From the NCBI RefSeq assembly GCF_016653315.1, contig NZ_NHSH01000042.1, positions 1 through 64,000 on the forward strand: a DNA stretch of 64,000 nt, written 5' to 3'. The translations under genes were made by a program, and so were the position numbers. The DNA comes from Halochromatium roseum. Its GTDB lineage: Bacteria > Pseudomonadota > Gammaproteobacteria > Chromatiales > Chromatiaceae. Shown in pieces: positions 48,520 through 58,136 of this stretch (the stretch's first letter is position 1; every line of letters starts with the position of its first letter). Below the pieces are notes generated by a model, which worked only from the letters and a program-made list of their open reading frames with translations, was not told the DNA's origin and did not search any database.

Positions 48520-51500
48520 ATGGACGAGATTGCCAGAATCGATATTCTCTGGGTGCTGATGAGCAGCGTGTTGGTGTTGCTCATGCAGGCCGGCTTTCTG
48601 TGTCTGGAGTCTGGGCTGACGCGGAGCAAGAACGCGATCAATGTCGCGTTGAAGAATGCCTCGGATTTCTTGATCACAAGCCTGGCCTGGTACCTCGTCG
48701 GCTACGGGTTGATGTTCGGTGCTTCGAAGAGTGGTTGGATCGGTAGCGATCGCTTCGTTCCCGACCTCTCCACGAGCGATCCCTGGGATGCGACCTTCTT
48801 CCTCTTCCAGCTCATGTTCTGCGCAACAGCGGCGACCATCGTCTCCGGCGCAGTCGCCGAGCGGATGCGTTTTAATGGCTACCATCTCGCTACCCTGATC
48901 ACGGTGGCGCTGATCTACCCGCTGTTTGGACACTGGGCGTGGGGCGGTGCGCTAGGTGGTGAGCGCGGATGGCTGGCGACCCTGGGCTTCGTCGACTTTG
49001 CCGGCTCAACCGTGGTGCATAGCGTCGGCGGCTGGATTGCGCTGGCCGCCGTATTGGTGATCGGCCCGCGCACGGGTCGTTTCTCCGCGGGTGAGGCACA
49101 GCTGATTCCCGGCAGCAACCTGCCGCTCGCCATGCTCGGTGTGCTGTTCTTCCTCGTCGGCTGGATCGGCTTCAACGGTGGTAGCACCCTAGCACTGGAT
49201 GCGGCGGTGCCGAGTATTATCGTCAATACCTTGATGTCGGCGGCGGCCGCTGGCGTCGCGGCTCATCTGCTGACGCGCTGGCTTGCCTGGCGCTCGTTGG
49301 ATCGGGTTGCGGTGCCATTAAACGGTGTCATTGCTGGCCTGGTCGCCATCACCGCTGGCTGCCATGTGGTTGCCACTTGGGAGGCCATCCTGATTGGTGC
49401 GCTGGCGAGCCTGTTCATGGTCTACGCGATCGAGCTGTTAGCCCGTCTGCGGATCGACGATGCCATTGGTGCGATACCGGTGCATCTGATTGCCGGCATC
49501 TGGGGCACCTTGGCGGTTGCCCTATTCGGCGCCCCAGCGCTGCTTGGCACCGGCCTCTCGATGATCGAGCAGTTGGCTGTGCAAGCCTTCGGCATCGTCA
49601 TTGCCGGCGCCTGGGCGTTTCCCCTGTCCTACCTATTGCTGCGCCTCATCAATCGATATTACCGGCTTCGGGTTGGTGTGGCTGAAGAGGAGATTGGCCT
49701 CAACGTTGCCGAGCATGGCGCGAAGACCGAACTGGTCGATCTGATGACCGCGCTCAGACGTCAGGAGCGTTCGGCAGATCTCTCGTTGCGCGTGCCCGTC
49801 GAGCCCTTCACCGAGGTGGGGCAGATCGCCGCGCAACATAATCGGTTGATGGATTCGCTGCAGCAGGCGGTCACGCGTAGTCAGGCGATTGTGCGTGATC
49901 TGCGCGATGGCATCCTCACCTTCACCGAGGCAGGTATTTTGACCAGCCTCAATCCAGGCGCGGAGAAGATCCTTGCCGTTGCCGGCGAAGCGGCGGTTGG
50001 GACCGCCTTCACTGATTTCTTCGATCTTGACAGCCACCGCGTTAGCCGAGGTCAGGGCGGGGATGAGCACCCTGAGCTACATGCAGTCTGGCATCGTGAT
50101 CCGGCCTTGCTCTCGAAAGAGGGCAAGGTTGAGGTTGCCCTGCGCCGGCGCGAGGCGGGTCAACCGGTGTTCGTCGAGCTGGCGGTGACCCCGGACTCGC
50201 GCGCGACCGGCAGCTATACCTGCCTGATGCGCGACGTCAGCGACCGGCGCCGGGTCGAGGAGCAGCTGTTCGAGGAGAAGGAGCTGGCGCAGATCACCCT
50301 CGAGGCGATTGCCGACGGTGTGATCACGACCGACAGTGTCGGTCGGGTGGTTTACATGAACGCGATCGCCGCGGAGCTGACCGGTTGGTCGCTGCAGGCA
50401 GCCGGTGGTCAGCCGCTCTACCGGGTGTTTCCGGTGGTCGATTCGCCCACCGAGATGCCGACCGACTGGATTACGCGGCGGGTGTTGAGGGATGGTGAGA
50501 CCCTGGTCGAGTCGACATCTCGTCTCCTCTATTGCCGTGACGGTAACGTCCATGTGGTGCAGCACACGGCAGCGCCGATTCGCAATGCCGAAGGCCGGCT
50601 GCGCGGACTCGTGGTCGTCTTTCATGACAAGACCCAGGCGCGGGCGATGGAGCGTCAGCTCACCTATCAGGCCAAGCATGATGCCCTCACCGGGTTGATC
50701 AATCGGCGCGAGTTCGAGCACCGTCTGACCGAGCTGATCGACCAGCTCGAGGACGGTCCTGCTCAGCATTTGCTCTGCTATCTGGACCTCGACCAGTTCA
50801 AGCTGGTCAACGATGTCTGCGGGCATGCCGCTGGTGATGCCCTGTTGCGCCAAATCGCCACGCTGCTCAAGCGGGGACTGCGCAGCGCGGATACCCTGGC
50901 GCGCTTGGGTGGTGACGAGTTTGGCGTGATCCTGACCAACTGCCCGATTGAACGCGGCCTCAAGATCGTCGAGGGGATGCGCGAGCGCGTGCATGCCTTG
51001 CGTTTCCCCTGGGAGGATCGGGTCTTCGGGGTTGGCGCCAGCATCGGTGTCGTGCCCTTGTCGCGTGCCCTCGGCAACCTCGCGGATGCCCTCGCCCGCG
51101 CCGATGCGGCCTGCTATGCGGCCAAGGATACCGGGCGCAACCGGGTGCACCTGTACGACCCGGATGACCGCGAGCTGAGCCTGCGCAAGGGACAGATGAA
51201 ATGGGTCTCGCGGATTCAGCAAGCGCTCGATGAGGATGGCTTCCGGCTCTTCTACCAAGGCATCGTGCCGCTTGATCAAGCGCAGGATAGCTGCAGCCAC
51301 TTCGAGATCCTGCTGCGCATCGCCGGCGAGGATGACGAGGTGTTGCCGCCAGGTGCCTTTATCCCGGCCGCTGAGCGCTACGGATTGATGCCAGAGGTCG
51401 ACTACTGGGTGGTCGAGCACACGCTGCAGTGGCTCTCAGCCTACCAAGCCCAAGGTGGCACGCAGATCAAGCATTGCGCGATCAACCTCTCTGGCGCGAC

Positions 51501-51984
51501 GCTGGGCAACGACAAGCATACGGCACGCATCCTCGAGTGCCTCAGGCGCCATTCGATCGGTCCATCGTCGATCTGTTTCGAGATCACCGAGACGGCGGCC
51601 ATGTCGAACCTTGATCTGGCCAAGCGCTTCATCGATGAGGTCAAGCAACTTGGTTGTCGCCTCGCTCTCGATGACTTCGGCAGCGGCCTGTCTTCCTTTG
51701 GTTATTTGCGCGATCTCAACGTCGATCTGGTCAAGATCGACGGCAGCTTCGTGCGCGAGCTGGACAGCAACGAGGTGCATCGGGCGATGGTGGAGGCAAT
51801 CGTGGGCATCACCGGCGTCATGGGGCTCGAGAGCACCGCCGAGTTCGTTGAGAATGCTCAGGTGCTTGAGGTGCTTCGCGAGATCGGTGTCGACTATGCG
51901 CAGGGCTACCATTTGGGTCGGCCGCGGCCGCTCGCCGATTACCCGATGCCGGCAGGGTCTTCAGCCCCGGATCAATCATGTTGA
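48520..51984 (+). CDS. Ammonium transporter domain fused to PAS-GGDEF-EAL
   Basis: A 1154-residue protein. Residues 1-380 are a complete Amt/MEP/Rh ammonium channel with about eleven helices, AGSTVVHSVGG (His167) and IPVHLIAGIWG (His322), the twin-His of the pore. Residues 385-450 are a linker (AEEEIGLNVAEHGAKTELVDL). Two PAS domains follow (about 455-575 and 590-710), then a GGDEF domain with RLGGDEF (797-801) and an RSAD inhibitory site, then an EAL domain in which the EAL triplet reads EIL, with DDFGSGLSSFGYL and DGSFVREL intact. Presumably a membrane sensor that links ammonium to cyclic di-GMP level. No PII gene (glnK) is adjacent. Whether it transports or only senses is not known. Confidence 0.93.
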   Translation: MDEIARIDILWVLMSSVLVLLMQAGFLCLESGLTRSKNAINVALKNASDFLITSLAWYLVGYGLMFGASKSGWIGSDRFVPDLSTSDPWDATFFLFQLMFCATAATIVSGAVAERMRFNGYHLATLITVALIYPLFGHWAWGGALGGERGWLATLGFVDFAGSTVVHSVGGWIALAAVLVIGPRTGRFSAGEAQLIPGSNLPLAMLGVLFFLVGWIGFNGGSTLALDAAVPSIIVNTLMSAAAAGVAAHLLTRWLAWRSLDRVAVPLNGVIAGLVAITAGCHVVATWEAILIGALASLFMVYAIELLARLRIDDAIGAIPVHLIAGIWGTLAVALFGAPALLGTGLSMIEQLAVQAFGIVIAGAWAFPLSYLLLRLINRYYRLRVGVAEEEIGLNVAEHGAKTELVDLMTALRRQERSADLSLRVPVEPFTEVGQIAAQHNRLMDSLQQAVTRSQAIVRDLRDGILTFTEAGILTSLNPGAEKILAVAGEAAVGTAFTDFFDLDSHRVSRGQGGDEHPELHAVWHRDPALLSKEGKVEVALRRREAGQPVFVELAVTPDSRATGSYTCLMRDVSDRRRVEEQLFEEKELAQITLEAIADGVITTDSVGRVVYMNAIAAELTGWSLQAAGGQPLYRVFPVVDSPTEMPTDWITRRVLRDGETLVESTSRLLYCRDGNVHVVQHTAAPIRNAEGRLRGLVVVFHDKTQARAMERQLTYQAKHDALTGLINRREFEHRLTELIDQLEDGPAQHLLCYLDLDQFKLVNDVCGHAAGDALLRQIATLLKRGLRSADTLARLGGDEFGVILTNCPIERGLKIVEGMRERVHALRFPWEDRVFGVGASIGVVPLSRALGNLADALARADAACYAAKDTGRNRVHLYDPDDRELSLRKGQMKWVSRIQQALDEDGFRLFYQGIVPLDQAQDSCSHFEILLRIAGEDDEVLPPGAFIPAAERYGLMPEVDYWVVEHTLQWLSAYQAQGGTQIKHCAINLSGATLGNDKHTARILECLRRHSIGPSSICFEITETAAMSNLDLAKRFIDEVKQLGCRLALDDFGSGLSSFGYLRDLNVDLVKIDGSFVRELDSNEVHRAMVEAIVGITGVMGLESTAEFVENAQVLEVLREIGVDYAQGYHLGRPRPLADYPMPAGSSAPDQSC

Positions 51985-52025: not shown

Positions 52026-54731
52026 ATGGCAAAGAAACGAAACAAACCAGTCAATCGGGCGAGCGCCAAAGCGGCCGCGACGCAGAGTCCCGAGGTGCGC
52101 GAGCGCGAGGCGCTGCAAGCCCTTGAGGCCGGGCGTTACCGCGAAGCGATTGCCGATCTCAAGGCGCTGCTCAAGGATGATGCGGCCAGCGAGCGCAGTG
52201 CCGCGCGGCGGCTCGCGCTCGCCGAGGCCTATGCCGGACGCGCGCATGAGTTGACCGAGAAGGGCATGCTCAAGGAGGCACTGGTGATCTGGGAGAACCG
52301 TGCTGGCCTTGGCCCCGAGGTGCCGCCGGCCCTGGAGCACGGCCTGCTGTGCCTGCGTCTTGGCAATCTAGAGCCGGTGCTCAAGCACTGGTCACACCGC
52401 GATGCGCTGACGCCTGCCGAGCGCGAGCGCATCGGTGAGCAGCTGGCAGCGGCGGTGCTGGCTGGTGATCAGCAGCTCCTTGCGCGGCTCGATGCCGATG
52501 ACCTGATTCGACGCCATGCCGAGCCGGCGCGCACCGCGCTCGAGGCTTACTGCGCCAAGGAGGCGCAGGCGCTCGAGGCGGCCTTGGCGCAGATCCCGTT
52601 CCGCTCGCCTTATCGGTCCTGGGCCTCGTTGTTAAAGGCGCTTGTGCGCGCCGAGCACGAGCCGGAGGCGGCACGTGCGATGCTCAAGCGCATCGGCGAT
52701 GACTCAGCCTTTGCCCCGCTAAGGCGTGCGGCCGAACTGGCGTTGCTCGATGACGCCGGGTTCATTCGTGCGCTCGAGCACGCTGGACCACAGCAAGCGG
52801 CCTTCGCCGCAGAGCTGCGTGGTTGGTCGCCACAGCAGTTCGAGCTGGCTCAGGCGCTGGCTGCGCTGGGCGCCAAGTCGCGGTCGACCAAGTCGCAGCC
52901 AACCAGGTCGCAGTCAACCAAGTTCGCTGATCGACAAACGCCCAATCGGCAAGCGATGGATCATCAAGGTCTATTGCGACTGCTGCAACGCTATCGGGAT
53001 CTGCTCGGCGCAGACTGGGTGCAACAGGCCTCGTTGCGATTGTTGCCGCCCATCTCCGAGCCCTGGGGTCCGCGTCCGAAGGGCTGGCGCGAATTGACTG
53101 ACTTGGAGCAGGCCTTGGTCGAGGCCTGGAACGCGGAGAATCCACAGGGCGGCTTCGGCTGGGATCCACCCGAGGCCTGGGAGGCGGTGGCCGATGCGCT
53201 GAGCAACCCGCATTGCACTGGCGCAGGCCTTGCGGCGCAAGATCGATTGCTCGCGGCGGCCCTCGCCCTGCGGCGTTTCGATGCGTACTACAAACTCCTC
53301 GAGACCGATCCGAGCAAGGGCCCTGTTGACCCCGATCCCGATTCGAGCGAAGCGATTGCGGCTCGGCAGCTTGAGCGCAGCCTAGCGTTCGACCCGGACC
53401 ATCGCGAGACCTATCTGCGGCTGATCAACTGGTATCGGCGCGCCGATCGATTGAAGGACGCTCGGCGCATCCTGGGCACCGCTCAGAAGCGCTGGCCCCG
53501 GGATATGGCGGTGTTGGAGGCTGCGATGCAAACGGCGCTTGCCAGCAATGCCTTCAAGAAGGCTGCCGGGCTGGCGCAGCAGATGCTCAAGGTCGATCCG
53601 ATCAATACCGGTGTACGTCAGCAACTGGTCAAGGCGCATCTTAAGCATGCTGCGAAACAGATCCGCAACCGGCGCGGCGATCTCGCGCTCAAGGAGGTCA
53701 GCGAGGCGCGGAACTGGGTCGCACGTGGCGCGGGTCAAGACCCTTTGCGTGAGCGCCTGACCTGGATCGATGATGTGTTGGCGATGCATTACGTCGATCG
53801 CGATGCGGGACGTGCCCGCTTGCAGGAGCGACTGCAGCAGCGGGGCGAGGGTCTCGCGGGTCGTGTCGAGCTGATGGTCGCCATTGATGAGCTCGCGCTG
53901 AGCCAGTCACAGATTGCCAAGCTGCTGGAGTGGAAGCCGGAGAAGGTTCGTGATGCTGCTGATCTGCGGTCAATCATCGCCCATTTGCGACAGTTTCTCG
54001 ATCAAACAGAACGTTTCACCAAGGGCTTGAGCGATCAGCTCAAGGCGATGCTGAAGGGGGCTCCTTGGAAGCAGTTCGAGCGCTCGGAGCTCGAGGTGGC
54101 CTGCGAGCTCCTGCGCCGCATGCGGCTCCACGCCGCACGTCAGGAGGCTGCCCGCGCGGCCCTGAAGCGCTGGCCGCGCACGCCGATCTTCGAGTTTCAC
54201 CTCTATCACAGCCAATATGCCGATCAGGGCCACCCGAAGCCAAAAGAACTGGAGCGGATGCGCGATGCCTTGCAGCGAGCCGAGGAGGCTGGTGACATGC
54301 GCGTGGCTAACCAGCTGCGCGAGCTGGTGCGGCAGTTTCTCCCGTTCGGTGGCCTGCCCATGCCAAACTTTGATCCGGACTTTGATCCGGACTTTGATCC
54401 GGACTTGGACCCAGGCTGGGGTGAGGGTTCACCCGATCAGATGGCGGCCTTGCTCACCGGTGCGCTTGGGCTCGATCAACTGCTCGACGCCCTACAACGC
54501 AAGCCATTGAAGCAGGCGCTCGAGGAATCCAGCATGCCCGGGGTCTTACGTGCCCATTTCCTTGAAATAGCGGAAGAAGAGGGCGAGGAATCGGTGGTCG
54601 AGATGCTCGAAGCGATTGTGTTGAGTGCTGCGGACAGTCTCGATGGGTTGCCGCTGCCGAATTCCGGCTCCGGTTCCAAACAGCGCAAACGCAAGTCCAA
54701 GAAATTCCCTTTTAATTTAGATCTATTCTGA
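52026..54731 (+). CDS. TPR-like co-chaperone protein of the Hsp70 module
   Basis: A 901-residue helical protein made of TPR-like repeats (for example EALQALEAGRYREAIADLKALLKD, then KEALVIWENRAGLGP, and a central block AYLRLINWYRRADRLKDARRIL type). The middle has a Ser/Arg/Thr linker from 15-nt repeats and the C terminus has an FDPDFDPDFDPDLDPG acidic repeat plus a basic end KQRKRKSKKFPF. I do not recognise a named family. The start at 52026 (MAKKRNKPVN, basic) is preferred; an in-frame ATG at 51978 overlaps the stop of the preceding gene. Its stop overlaps the start of the J-domain gene (TGATG), so it is the first gene of the chaperone operon and may present or recognise clients. Confidence 0.8.
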   Translation: MAKKRNKPVNRASAKAAATQSPEVREREALQALEAGRYREAIADLKALLKDDAASERSAARRLALAEAYAGRAHELTEKGMLKEALVIWENRAGLGPEVPPALEHGLLCLRLGNLEPVLKHWSHRDALTPAERERIGEQLAAAVLAGDQQLLARLDADDLIRRHAEPARTALEAYCAKEAQALEAALAQIPFRSPYRSWASLLKALVRAEHEPEAARAMLKRIGDDSAFAPLRRAAELALLDDAGFIRALEHAGPQQAAFAAELRGWSPQQFELAQALAALGAKSRSTKSQPTRSQSTKFADRQTPNRQAMDHQGLLRLLQRYRDLLGADWVQQASLRLLPPISEPWGPRPKGWRELTDLEQALVEAWNAENPQGGFGWDPPEAWEAVADALSNPHCTGAGLAAQDRLLAAALALRRFDAYYKLLETDPSKGPVDPDPDSSEAIAARQLERSLAFDPDHRETYLRLINWYRRADRLKDARRILGTAQKRWPRDMAVLEAAMQTALASNAFKKAAGLAQQMLKVDPINTGVRQQLVKAHLKHAAKQIRNRRGDLALKEVSEARNWVARGAGQDPLRERLTWIDDVLAMHYVDRDAGRARLQERLQQRGEGLAGRVELMVAIDELALSQSQIAKLLEWKPEKVRDAADLRSIIAHLRQFLDQTERFTKGLSDQLKAMLKGAPWKQFERSELEVACELLRRMRLHAARQEAARAALKRWPRTPIFEFHLYHSQYADQGHPKPKELERMRDALQRAEEAGDMRVANQLRELVRQFLPFGGLPMPNFDPDFDPDFDPDLDPGWGEGSPDQMAALLTGALGLDQLLDALQRKPLKQALEESSMPGVLRAHFLEIAEEEGEESVVEMLEAIVLSAADSLDGLPLPNSGSGSKQRKRKSKKFPFNLDLF
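52875..52919 (+). repeat. 15-nt in-frame repeat in the TPR gene
   Basis: Three 15-nt units (AAGTCGCGGTCGACC and two variants) code for KSRST, KSQPT, RSQST in a disordered linker. Confidence 0.75.
54369..54404 (+). repeat. 12-nt in-frame repeat in the TPR gene
   Basis: Three exact copies of TTTGATCCGGAC code for FDPD tetrapeptides and give an acidic stretch near the C terminus. Confidence 0.85.
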
Positions 54732-55132
54732 TGGCTGATCCCTTTCTCGTGCTCGGCATCGATTCCGATGCCGACGATGCTGCCGTAGAAACGGCCTATC
54801 GTAGTGCGATCAAGCGCTGTCCGCCCGACCGCGATCCGTCCGCGTTTCAGGCCGTGCGCGAGGCCTATGAGCAGCTGCGCACCCGGCGTGATCGGATTGC
54901 CTATCGGTTGTTCGAGACCGCACCGCCGCAACCGATCGACATCTTGCGCCGGGCCGAGGTGAATCGGCGCGCCGCCCAGTCGACGACCTCGTCTGCGGCC
55001 AAGCCCTCCGCCAAGCCCAACGCTAATTCCCACGCCAAGCCGGCTAATGAACGGTCCCCTGGATCAGACGCTTCGGGCAGGCAGCGACCTGCGCCGGAGC
55101 GGTTTCAAGCCTTGCTGAGAGGAGAGCCCTAA
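54731..55132 (+). CDS. Variant J-domain protein (PPD instead of HPD)
   Basis: A 133-residue protein. Residues 1-65 form a J-domain-like helical fold: DPFLVLGIDSDADDAAVETAYRSAIKRC, then PPDRDPSAFQAVREAYEQLRTRRDRIAYRL. The invariant HPD that contacts Hsp70 is replaced by PPD at residues 31-33, so only the Pro and Asp remain. The C-terminal 65 residues are Ala/Lys/Pro-rich with repeats of KPSA and AKP type and no zinc or substrate domain. It sits between the TPR and GrpE-like genes. This is probably a co-chaperone dedicated to the Hsp70 of the same operon. Confidence 0.8.
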   Translation: MADPFLVLGIDSDADDAAVETAYRSAIKRCPPDRDPSAFQAVREAYEQLRTRRDRIAYRLFETAPPQPIDILRRAEVNRRAAQSTTSSAAKPSAKPNANSHAKPANERSPGSDASGRQRPAPERFQALLRGEP

Positions 55133-55981
55133 ATGGATACGGCCACCAAGGATCGGCTCGCGGAACGTTTTCGTCTCTACCTGGATCAACCGCCCGCGGC
55201 TACCCAAGCCAATGCGAGTCTGTTTGGCGATGCTGAGGAGAACGCCCCGAAGGCGCCGGATCTGTTCAGCCTGCTGGCTGAGGTCGCGGCGCTGAAGAAC
55301 GAGGTCAAGCTCGAATCGCGCCAGTTTAAGATGGCGCTCGATGAATTTCGTGGGCTTTTTGAGGCCCTGCAGTCGGCTCAGACGCGCCTTGAGCAGGAAC
55401 AGCAGCGGCGGCGCGAGCAAGAGCGCGGCGCGCGCCGGCGTGAGCACAAAGCGCTGCTGCTCGAGCTGTTGGAGCTGCGCGACCGGCTGCAGGCCGGACA
55501 GGCGAGCACGGCTGGTTATAAGCCTAAAGGGCTGTTCGGTCGGCGCCGCGCGCGTGAGTTCGCAGCGGCCATGGCCGAGGGGCTGGCGATGAACCTGCGC
55601 CGGCTCGATGAGACCCTAGCGCGGCGTGGCGTGCGGCCGCTACCGGCGCTTGGCAAGACCTTTGATCCACATCGCATGCATGCCGCTGAGCTGGCCTTTG
55701 ATCCCGAGATCCCCGTTGGTCAGGTGATCGCCGAACGCCGCCCTGGCTTCCTGCTCGAGGACGAGCTGCTGCGGATCGCTGAGGTGGTCGTCAACCGCCC
55801 TGAGGCGGTCGGACCGGCTGAGCCACCTGGACCTGCATCATCTGTGCGCACTGCCGCCCCGACCAGGCCTGAAGCGGCACCGGCCGCTTCTGCAACGACC
55901 GCGTCTACACCTCCTGCATCTACACCGCCTGCACCCGCTGCTGAACCCATTAACCAGACACCGACCGAGCCTTCTCCATGA
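55133..55981 (+). CDS. GrpE-like nucleotide exchange factor
   Basis: A 282-residue protein starting immediately after the J-protein stop. Residues about 44-150 are a long coiled coil (EVAALKNEVKLESRQFKMALDEF onward), and residues about 170-222 match the GrpE beta-wing: LPALGKTFDPHRMHAAELAFDPEIPVGQVIAERRPGFLLEDELLRIAEVVVN. GrpE normally has about 190 residues and a VV.NP end; this one adds a Pro/Ala/Thr-rich tail of 60 residues with a 15-nt repeat. The last four bases overlap the Hsp70 start (ATGA). Nucleotide exchange on the neighbouring Hsp70 is inferred. Confidence 0.8.
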   Translation: MDTATKDRLAERFRLYLDQPPAATQANASLFGDAEENAPKAPDLFSLLAEVAALKNEVKLESRQFKMALDEFRGLFEALQSAQTRLEQEQQRRREQERGARRREHKALLLELLELRDRLQAGQASTAGYKPKGLFGRRRAREFAAAMAEGLAMNLRRLDETLARRGVRPLPALGKTFDPHRMHAAELAFDPEIPVGQVIAERRPGFLLEDELLRIAEVVVNRPEAVGPAEPPGPASSVRTAAPTRPEAAPAASATTASTPPASTPPAPAAEPINQTPTEPSP

Positions 55982-57726
55982 GCGACATCATCATCGGCAT
56001 TGATCTTGGCACCACCAACTCGGAGGTCGCGGTGTTACGCGATGGCCGTGCGGAGGTGCTCGAGGTCGATGGCTCCCGCATCCTACCCTCGATCGTTGGC
56101 GTTGCCGATGACGGCGCCCTATTGGTCGGCCAGGCCGCGCGTAATCAGTATGCCCTGTATCCGGAGCGGACCATTCGCTCGGTGAAAAGACGCATGGGTG
56201 AGGATGTCCGGCTGCCGATGGGCGATCAGTCCTACAGCCCGCAGGAGATCTCGGCACTGATCCTGAAGCGGCTCAAGCGCGCCGCCGAAGAACAGCTAGG
56301 CGAGCCGGTCGGCAAGGCCGTGATCACGGTGCCGGCCTACTTCTCCGATGCCCAGCGCCAAGCGACCCGCAATGCCGGCGAGCTGGCCGGGCTCGAGGTG
56401 GTGCGTATCATCAACGAGCCGACCGCTGCCGCCTTGGCCTACGAGGTCGATGCCGAGCAGCCGCGCACCATCCTGGTCTACGACCTGGGCGGTGGCACCT
56501 TCGATTGCTCGGTGGTGCGTGCCGGCGGCGAGATCACCGAGGTGTTGGCCAGCCACGGCAACAACCATCTCGGTGGCGACGATTTCGACGCCAAGCTCAT
56601 CGAGCATGTGGTCACCCATCTGAAGGAACAGCACGACTGTGATCCCAGCCAGGATCAGGCCGCGATGGCGCGCATCACGCGCGCCTGCGAGACGGCCAAG
56701 ATCGCGCTCAGCGATGCCCCCTATGCGCGCATCGACGAGGAATACCTGCTGCCCGGTCGCAACCCGCCAGTCAACCTGTCGTTGGAGGTCAGTCGCCTCG
56801 ACTACGAGGCGATGATCGAAGCCTACATCGACGAGACCCTAGATGCCGTGCATACGGCGCTCAAGGGGGCCGAGCTGACGGTGTCCGACATCGACGAGGT
56901 GGTGTTGGTGGGTGGTGCCACGCGCACCCCGGTGATCCAAGCGCGACTCGAGGAACTGCTTGGGATGCAGCCACGCGCCGAGATCGATCCCGATCTCTGT
57001 GTGGCTGCGGGCGCTGCGATCCAGGCTGCGGTGATCGCGGGTCAGGCAACCAGCACCGTGCTGGTGGACGTGACGCCCTATACCTTCGGCACCAGTGCCC
57101 TTAGCGAGATGAATGGCATGCCCTATCCGTACTGCTTCGTGCCGGTCATCCGCAAGAATACGCCGATCCCAACCAGCAAGACCGAGGCCTTCCAGACCAT
57201 GTTCGATGGTCAGGACTCGGTTGACGTGCATATCTATCAGGGTGAGGATCGCGATGCGCTCAACAATACCGAGATCGGCTCGTTCCGGGTCGAAGGATTG
57301 AGTGATGTGCCTGCGGGTAACGTGATCCTGATGCGCTTTGATCTGGATCTGGATGGCATCCTCAAGGTCACGGCGATCGAGAAGAGCTCTGGGCTGGAAA
57401 AGCATATCGAGATCGATAACGCGACGGCCCGGTTTGAATCCGAGCAGCTTGATGCGGCCAAGCAACGCCTCGCGACGCTCATCGATGGCGACGCTGAGGT
57501 TGAAGGGAGCGCGGATGCCGACACCGAGCAGCACCGTGGGCAGGTTCGCGCCAAGGCCCTCCTTGACAAGGCGGAGCGCCTGCTGCAGAGCGCGAGCGAT
57601 GAGGATAAAGAGGACCTGATCGACCTGATCGAAGCCGTGCGTGATAGTTTGGAGGCAGGGGACGAGGATGGGCTAAAGCGCTCGACCGACGCCTTGGCCG
57701 ATCTGATCTATTACCTGGAGACCTGA
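55978..57726 (+). CDS. HscC-like Hsp70 family chaperone
   Basis: A 582-residue Hsp70. The ATPase domain has IGIDLGTTNSEVAVL, INEPTAAALAYEVD, YDLGGGTFDCSVV and VLVGGATRTPVIQ; the linker VLVDVTPYTFG is near residue 360; the substrate-binding beta domain follows with NTPIPTSKTEAFQTM and VDVHIYQGEDRDALNN. The lid is short (about residues 490-582) and lacks the DnaK C-terminal motif. The length and the RMGEDVRL type of segment agree with HscC rather than DnaK or HscA. Co-coded with TPR, J-domain, GrpE-like and zinc-ribbon genes, it is probably a specialised second Hsp70. Confidence 0.88.
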   Translation: MSDIIIGIDLGTTNSEVAVLRDGRAEVLEVDGSRILPSIVGVADDGALLVGQAARNQYALYPERTIRSVKRRMGEDVRLPMGDQSYSPQEISALILKRLKRAAEEQLGEPVGKAVITVPAYFSDAQRQATRNAGELAGLEVVRIINEPTAAALAYEVDAEQPRTILVYDLGGGTFDCSVVRAGGEITEVLASHGNNHLGGDDFDAKLIEHVVTHLKEQHDCDPSQDQAAMARITRACETAKIALSDAPYARIDEEYLLPGRNPPVNLSLEVSRLDYEAMIEAYIDETLDAVHTALKGAELTVSDIDEVVLVGGATRTPVIQARLEELLGMQPRAEIDPDLCVAAGAAIQAAVIAGQATSTVLVDVTPYTFGTSALSEMNGMPYPYCFVPVIRKNTPIPTSKTEAFQTMFDGQDSVDVHIYQGEDRDALNNTEIGSFRVEGLSDVPAGNVILMRFDLDLDGILKVTAIEKSSGLEKHIEIDNATARFESEQLDAAKQRLATLIDGDAEVEGSADADTEQHRGQVRAKALLDKAERLLQSASDEDKEDLIDLIEAVRDSLEAGDEDGLKRSTDALADLIYYLET

Positions 57727-57806
57727 GCCTGAGCCACGGCGCTTAGGCACTTGAGCTGCGGGCGTCGATGACCCACTCAATGTTAGAACGAGCGATCAGA
57801 GCCACC

Positions 57807-58136
57807 ATGGAACGCTGTCCTAACTGTCGTGCGCGCCTCGATGAGGCCGAGATCTGCCGCCGCTGCGGCATGGAGCTCGGTCTACTGTTGGCGACCGAGC
57901 GTGCCGCAGAGCACTGGCTGCGCATCGGCATCGCCGAGTTCGTCAAGGATGAGTCAGCGGCTGCGGAGCAGGCGCTGCAGCGTGTGTTGAGCCTCCGACG
58001 CGACCCGCTCGCCGAGTCGCTGCTTGGTCTTCTATACCAGCGCGTTTCCAGTTCAAGCGATCGGCTCCTGATCGACCCCGGCACCAGGCTCGTGATCTCC
58101 AATTTTGGTGGTCGGGTTCTGATCTCCCAGTCCTGA
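57807..58136 (+). CDS. Zinc-ribbon/TPR-like small protein at the end of the Hsp70 module
   Basis: A 109-residue protein. Residues 3-25 form a four-cysteine zinc ribbon: CPNCRARLDEAEICRRCG. Then follows a short helical hairpin (LATERAAEHWLRIGIAEFVKDESAAAEQALQRVLSLR) resembling a TPR pair. The ATG at 57807 is chosen because the ribbon then begins at residue 3; two upstream in-frame ATGs (57768, 57780) add unconserved residues. It lies 80 bp downstream of the Hsp70. Function is unknown; it could be a client adaptor. Confidence 0.65.
   Translation: MERCPNCRARLDEAEICRRCGMELGLLLATERAAEHWLRIGIAEFVKDESAAAEQALQRVLSLRRDPLAESLLGLLYQRVSSSSDRLLIDPGTRLVISNFGGRVLISQS

Follow-up and report, generated by a model that had tools for sequence, protein, structure and literature searches.

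Five consecutive genes lie on the forward strand at positions 52026-58136 of the window we analyzed, a 64,000-nucleotide (nt) stretch from Halochromatium roseum (contig NZ_NHSH01000042.1, positions 1 to 64,000), and encode a tetratricopeptide repeat (TPR) protein, a J-like protein, a GrpE-like protein, an Hsp70 and a zinc-ribbon protein. An earlier reading of the sequence, hereafter the original prediction, had described them as a chaperone operon with overlapping or abutting junctions, separate from housekeeping dnaK, and the reading frames agree with that description. The TPR or alpha-solenoid scaffold protein (901 amino acids (aa), 52026..54731), recognized from a structure model and weak TPR Pfam matches, ends its disordered tail in NLDLF (54714..54731 with the stop codon), a peptide that resembles sliding-clamp-binding motifs and takes the form QLDLF, QFDLF, QLEFDF and similar elsewhere in the family. 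Its gene overlaps by 1 nt that of the J-like protein (133 aa, 54731..55132), which has PPD in place of HPD and a short loop between helices II and III. The gene for the GrpE-like exchange factor, GrpE2 (282 aa, 55133..55981), abuts the J gene (0 nt) and overlaps by 4 nt the gene for an Hsp70 that belongs to its own clade (582 aa, 55978..57726). The zinc-ribbon protein (CPxC...CxxC; 109 aa, 57807..58136), which has a weak TPR-like hairpin, follows after a gap of +80 nt, or +41 nt from an alternative open reading frame (ORF) start at 57768; the start at 57807 is more likely because aligned homologues share the start M[EDQ]RCP[NS]C. Pfam scores of the window proteins exceeded the model cut-offs for DnaJ (33.5 versus 27.8 bits), GrpE (76.4 versus 25.8 bits) and HSP70 (497 versus 20.6 bits), and fell below them for the TPR and zinc-ribbon models. 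The housekeeping DnaK, the strongest Hsp70 match in the genome (883 bits), is on another contig, where a GrpE match directly adjoins it.

The original prediction had proposed looking for the five genes, in this order, in other genomes, and would have been refuted by their absence; the set does recur. When named genomes were scanned using a GrpE2 profile, 31 loci were recovered; these belong to Chromatiaceae, to two Halomonas and to some gammaproteobacterial metagenome-assembled genomes, and all five genes were found in the same order in 27 of them (with the TPR gene of L055 cut by a contig end). The exceptions were a locus at a contig end (L073), one without the TPR and J genes (L075), a Thiosymbion locus without the Hsp70 gene (L066) and a decayed Thiosymbion copy (L081). 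Among loci from the class and phylum samples, 20 of 24 had the full order; three of the other four were cut by contig ends, and in the fourth (G149) the module is split over two loci. The five-gene order is far above chance expectation, and the flanking genes vary between loci. In the class sample, GrpE2 scored at least 172.9 bits in 10 of 369 genomes and the next best score was 73.5 bits; matches at or below this value were treated as canonical GrpE, an example being G046, where the match sits in a grpE-dnaK-dnaJ row. A module-Hsp70 profile applied to a same-sized draw from the class returned the same ten genomes plus G108. GrpE2 was found in 16 of 398 genomes of the phylum sample, comprising the window's own and 15 others, all of one second class that was covered by 48 genomes (15/48 with GrpE2). 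Finally, a TPR match, partial in some cases, was present in 53 of the 210 genomes from the window's order.

The five proteins have also diverged together. Their pairwise distances correlate, with r between 0.66 and 0.93 across 34 loci picked to exclude near-duplicates, and none of 999 permutations gave values as high. Taken together, order, co-occurrence and correlated distances support well the view that the five genes form a self-contained, jointly inherited and co-diverged Hsp70-type chaperone module. Based on 11 genomes, the Hsp70 distance between the two classes (0.66) is smaller than that of DnaE (0.88), whereas within the classes the two are alike (Hsp70, 0.57 and 0.54; DnaE, 0.58 and 0.50), a pattern that fits transfer of the module between the classes but is no proof of it.

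Individual copies show how the set varies. In a Thiosymbion ectosymbiont of Catanema, the module copy is broken into several frames (L081, 9600-10560), and the Thiosymbion locus L066 keeps TPR-J-GrpE2, with no Hsp70 found within its 20.7 kb. The two parts of the module in G149, J-GrpE2 and Hsp70-zinc-ribbon, stand at separate loci (L126 and L158), so the module can split. G004, of the same genus, has GrpE2-Hsp70-zinc-ribbon without TPR and J (L045 5147-8017, the same locus as L075), and its Hsp70 lies on a long branch, with Cys at the T199 position and Leu at the Q378 position. The G108 set (L157, 150-3383) has a shorter TPR protein and the J motif PPS, and in G001 part of the TPR gene is present again upstream of the module (L040, 4629-5072).

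Features of the Hsp70 were counted in 25 module proteins, with G108 and G004 counted apart. All 25, as well as G108 and G004, lack the segment equivalent to DnaK 76-101; all 25 also have a small deletion in the D211 loop, which HscA shares, and eight more residues than DnaK in L1,2 of the substrate-binding domain (SBD). Deletion of 76-101, deletion of the D211 loop and an L1,2 insertion of 4-8 residues are typical features of HscC, and loss of the GrpE signature is typical of HscA and HscC (PMC8215388). The original prediction's label of HscC-like therefore stands for the deletions and the insertion but not for the GrpE-contacting part: the GrpE loop in subdomain IIB has 31 residues in 25/25 module Hsp70s and in 7/7 DnaKs, compared to 23-25 in five HscCs and 21 in HscA. 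This loop has the length found in DnaK and a sequence differing from DnaK's. The J-contact residues R167, L391, D393 and P419 are retained in all 25 proteins, and both residues of one of the two cleft-spanning salt bridges, R56 and E264, are substituted in all 25. In the tree, a single branch (100/99) separates 27 module Hsp70s from DnaK and from five HscC rows, with the exact placement of HscC and HscA being unsure owing to their long branches. Against the NCBIfam DnaK model (PRK00290, NF001413), the window protein scored 544.4, below the cut-off of 648. It had been said to lack the end of the DnaK lid; relative to E. coli DnaK, HscA and HscC, it does lack the C-terminal tail and some of helix B, but the helical lid is kept, and the protein ends in DLIYYLET, which is of conserved type. 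Because HscC-type deletions and insertion are combined with a kept GrpE loop and a clade of its own, the module Hsp70 looks in its make-up like a GrpE-dependent relative of HscC, yet neither HscC nor DnaK; membership of HscC was rejected on the basis of the loop and the clade. Two further candidate features were dropped, namely a swap of charges involving position 206 of the Hsp70 and position 22 of the J protein, which by eye was inconsistent across the two classes, and a seeming substitution in G108 at DnaK position 32, where the alignment is ambiguous.

The histidine of the HPD motif, already noted as missing from the window's J-like protein, is present in 0 of 53 copies (close relatives included), which read PPE (n = 31), PPD (n = 13), SPE (n = 6), SPD (n = 2) and PAE (n = 1). 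Position 33 is thus Pro (n = 45) or Ser (n = 8) and position 35 is Glu (n = 38) or Asp (n = 15), such that an acidic third residue is kept in 53/53. The protein has a short loop of the DjlC type, and nearer relatives have in common an LLRG motif near the C-terminus. In the systems tested, loss of the His or Asp of HPD abolished stimulation (PMC8215388). Altered HPD motifs do also occur outside the module in this part of the Hsp70 family, as the J genes beside four HscC orthologues (L164-L167) read HPE, NPE, RPD and KPE; the motif of E. coli DjlC is HPE, and DjlC stimulates HscC (PMC8215388). Although the histidine is missing throughout, the acidic third residue persists, as do R167, L391, D393 and P419 on the Hsp70 side; the J-like protein may stimulate the ATPase of the module Hsp70.

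The AlphaFold2 model of GrpE2 has an 84-residue helix (residues 44-127), a second helix and a beta wing (167-221), with a mean predicted local distance difference test score (pLDDT) of 85.6, and its 12 best Foldseek matches are all GrpE or GrpE-like structures. By profile and modeled fold, GrpE2 appears to be a GrpE-like nucleotide exchange factor, and it is predicted to release ADP from its Hsp70. An added tail on this protein had been offered as a sign of co-divergence; the set has indeed co-diverged, but the Pro/Ala tail of the window protein is variable and not conserved among homologues. What is conserved is an N-terminal extension, around PDLFxLLxELAALKNEVKxESRQ, which is nearly letter for letter the same in nearer relatives.

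The TPR protein was modeled as a helical solenoid (mean pLDDT 86.6) spanning residues ~11-771, followed by a low-confidence linker to residue 802, helices at 803-873 and a tail of 28 residues (874-901) with pLDDT <50 that is predicted to be disordered. Foldseek matched it best to TPR proteins of eukaryotes, including Ctr9, Ski3, Naa15 and Cut9, with significant E-values; since template modeling scores are low (~0.1-0.25), the match is to the type of repeat only. The end of the tail suggests a more specific role. In many Gammaproteobacteria it reads QLDLF, QFDLF, QLELF, QFELF, QPDLF, QLDMF or QLGLF, in some cases plus one residue (QPDLFT in Halomonas ventosae, QLDLFS in Thiorhodococcus minor), and in the second class it takes hexameric forms (QLTLDF, QLILDF, QLEFDF, QLIFDF, QLEIEF) plus a few more residues. 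The published beta-clamp motif has the consensus QL(S/D)LF, with QLDLF as the strongest peptide and a modest effect of Asn for Gln; phage display additionally gave the hexamer ligand LQLELDF, and acidic flanks were noted (PMC11139829). Likewise, the E. coli polymerases PolB and DnaE end in QLGLF and QVELEFD. The matching TPR tails carry these published clamp-binding patterns and may bind the beta-clamp.

We found such a tail in 24 of 45 TPR proteins, comprising pentamers in 16 of 32 from Gammaproteobacteria (two with Asn first, including the window's NLDLF) and hexamers in 8 of 13 from the second class. The pattern was defined after inspection of these 45 tails. When the tails were shuffled, a mean of 0.2 and a maximum of 3 of 45 matched in 2000 rounds. 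Control C-termini taken from the same loci, with the TPR proteins removed, showed the pattern in only 1 of 578 cases, these controls being mechanical ORFs of which many are perhaps not genes; a first control, giving 32 of 1409 ORF ends, still included the TPR proteins themselves. The pattern occurred in 7 of 2643 internal 14-mers of the TPR proteins and, among the other module proteins, in J 0/53, GrpE2 0/56, Hsp70 0/53 and zinc ribbon 1/51. Across the anchored tails (n = 16), the linker is variable but the motif columns show little or no variation. Applied unchanged to 28 further TPR proteins, the pattern was matched by 15, or by 13 of 25 without three tails seen beforehand (G001, G006 and G029). 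Those 28 are the proteins whose last 40 residues differ from those of the first 45, among 49 that were read from the 53 genomes with a TPR match (four partial ones left out), and as they are all of the window's order, close relatives included, they are not phylogenetically independent.

Where the clamp-like tail is missing, TPR proteins frequently terminate in a Lys/Arg stretch (L197, L198, L215, L222 and L225; Thiocapsa and others). At L058 and L066, a different frame encodes QIDLF or QPDLF shortly after the TPR ORF; neither is among the 24. The sole control ORF with the pattern (L121, 12130-12903, ending QLGLF) stands directly behind a module whose TPR protein is without it. Mimicry of the host DnaE tail was considered and dropped, as by eye the pattern is absent from the DnaE C-termini of 12 module genomes (one of them, G231, with a partial locus).

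Based on these results, we propose a dedicated Hsp70 machine, scaffolded by the TPR protein and tethered to the replication clamp, a reading to which we give even chances. In this model, the Hsp70 would hydrolyze ATP and hold the client, and the J-like protein would dock at the usual site (R167, the linker and P419) with its P-P-D/E loop replacing HPD. GrpE2 would then engage the retained loop of subdomain IIB and eject ADP, while the TPR solenoid, perhaps aided by the zinc-ribbon protein, would assemble the parts and present clients. The scaffold tail would serve as the address, most simply of the sliding clamp. The fuller version, in which this C-terminal peptide addresses the complete Hsp70-J-GrpE machine to the clamp as a chaperone that is tethered to the replisome and there remodels or matures clients of the clamp, encoded by one operon passed between lineages, we hold more tentatively, at slightly under even. 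The gene set with its order and co-inheritance, the sequence features and the predicted folds of the TPR protein and GrpE2 are what the analysis shows; the mechanism, including the clamp step and the clients, is inferred.

A number of observations weigh against the proposed clamp tether or against parts of the cycle. The clamp address rests on a five- or six-residue pattern in slightly over half of the TPR proteins. It is lacking in 21 of the first 45 tails (Thiocapsa, Thiocystis and several others, with some near misses) and in 13 of the 28 further tails (two of them cut by contig ends), and matches cluster in groups of close relatives. The window's own NLDLF is a weaker form without Gln, tolerated but non-consensus, the delta subunit being the only natural clamp ligand named without Gln in first place in PMC11139829, and in the near relative L054 the tail reads NPFNFF and the pattern is lost. 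Among 351 flank ORFs from 48 loci, no gene family for replication or repair was seen repeatedly next to the module. With respect to the chaperone cycle, two DnaK contacts to the J domain are altered in 25/25 module Hsp70s (E206 changed and D211 deleted) and D477 is changed in 11/25; GrpE2 is not beside the TPR-J-Hsp70 set of G108; and the zinc-ribbon protein, although a constant member of the module, has no assigned step.

The most serious alternative is the same dedicated machine with no link to the clamp, the TPR tail binding instead within the machine (to the Hsp70 SBD, GrpE2 or J) or to a client, as a local latch resembling EEVD. We consider this possible, if clearly less probable than a clamp tether. 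The evidence for the module, from gene order to correlated distances, is identical under both readings, the tails of some lineages are without the clamp-like motif, and DLF-like peptides recur in the set, both as the conserved internal PDLF of GrpE2 and as LFxALLRG at the C-terminus of the J protein in nearer relatives. However, in the matching tails Gln is retained, as is the spacing of hydrophobic residues known from the published pentamers and hexamers, whereas the internal PDLF has no Gln. Their acidic flanks, such as the DDDDDMPE that precedes QLDLF, are in addition ill-suited to an Hsp70 site preferring positive charge, a substrate preference that has been reported for HscC of E. coli (PMC8215388). 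Still within the tail, its acidic character might instead point to binding partners of the single-stranded DNA-binding protein (SSB). SSB tails combine an acidic stretch with a terminal Phe, and several TPR tails are acidic with Phe at or near the end (for example, DDEDPPIQTDPF in L061). Yet matching tails conserve Gln and the hydrophobic residue after it, Phe frequently does not end the protein (one extra residue in 5 of the 16 anchored pentamers), the window tail is basic and the hexamer forms do not fit, so that we regard an SSB-like tail as very improbable.

Other alternatives concern the cofactors. The J-like protein could be a tether or inhibitor and not a stimulator of the ATPase, with the Hsp70 using another J protein or relying on client and scaffold alone. 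This agrees with the absence of the histidine from every copy, with the changes at E206 and D211 and with the lost stimulation reported for HPD mutants in other systems (PMC8215388). We nonetheless judge it unlikely, given that the acidic third residue is kept in 53/53 copies and R167, L391, D393 and P419 in 25/25 Hsp70s, and that J genes neighboring HscC also have altered motifs (HPE, NPE, RPD and KPE), with the HPE-bearing DjlC still stimulating HscC (PMC8215388). That the J-like protein and GrpE2 serve housekeeping DnaK as accessory cofactors, and stand beside a divergent Hsp70 by chance, is hardly credible: they do have J and GrpE domains, but they share the same ten genomes with the module Hsp70, keep a fixed order over two classes and diverge in correlation with it, and GrpE2 scores are separated from those of other GrpE proteins by a wide gap (at least 172.9 versus at most 73.5 bits).

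Several known systems resemble the module in part. Like HscC with DjlC and DjlB, it has the DnaK 76-101 and D211-loop deletions, the L1,2 insertion, a shortened helix B and a J partner whose HPD is altered and whose short loop is the same; Sel1-repeat proteins and J genes also lie near hscC in E. coli. Unlike the module, HscC has no GrpE loop and the E. coli hscC locus no GrpE; the Hsp70s belong to separate clades, and DjlB and DjlC are 475 and 483 aa in E. coli, whereas module J proteins are mostly 97-133 aa. With DnaK-DnaJ-GrpE (grpE-dnaK-dnaJ), the module shares the three-part cycle, the GrpE fold and the GrpE-type Hsp70 loop. It differs in that its Hsp70 forms its own clade and lacks a 24-residue segment of the nucleotide-binding domain and the tail, in that its J-like protein is barely more than a J domain without the His, and in its extra TPR and zinc-ribbon proteins. 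GrpS and the specialized Hsp70s of Myxococcus xanthus, as well as DnaK1-DnaJ3-GrpE of Nostoc, are comparable as specialized Hsp70s with GrpE partners and dedicated roles, but the excerpts of these papers mention no five-gene TPR-J-GrpE-Hsp70-zinc-ribbon unit (PMC10313047, PMC9239167), and Nostoc punctiforme has one GrpE only (PMC9239167). Finally, clamp-binding polymerases carry the same C-terminal peptide patterns, but no chaperone scaffold is among the clamp partners described in the accessible part of PMC11139829.

Searches of open-licence PubMed Central papers turned up neither this five-gene set nor a chaperone on the bacterial clamp in titles or abstract openings. If the tail does bind DnaN, the module would be, judged from those searches, the first Hsp70 machine with a built-in replication-clamp address, and a role of specialized Hsp70s in DNA replication or damage tolerance would become directly testable. 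E. coli HscC gives resistance to ultraviolet light by an unknown mechanism (PMC8215388), and because of this gap the module could help with the puzzle of HscC-like Hsp70s. Even without the clamp, the Hsp70 clade, with its own GrpE, is undescribed as far as those searches go, and a J partner lacking the HPD histidine in every copy examined offers a natural test of whether that histidine is necessary. The clamp-like TPR tail also provides a concrete lead on the role of the module, which the original prediction had left blank.

An origin from phages or plasmids was rejected: GrpE2 had no plasmid match, none of 28 viral stretches that matched a peptide pattern codes for a relative, and phage matches to the Hsp70 were taken as housekeeping-type (52 records matched; among the 10 matches listed, all were <45% identical and two were annotated, both as dnaK). 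A defense system was rejected as well, with no credible PADLOC match (one hit, to Cas8b, fell in the TPR protein with E = 0.0067). Clustering of the flanking ORFs gave a largest shared cluster of nine loci, for which the member shown is the Amt-GGDEF-EAL gene, and a next largest of four. The placement of the module directly behind that gene was described correctly for the window, but the gene is not part of the set, as only part of the genomes of the same genus have an Amt-GGDEF-EAL match upstream of the module. In the window itself, it is a single open frame of 1154 aa (48520-51984) that fuses ammonium transporter, PAS, GGDEF and EAL domains and stops 41 nt upstream of the module.

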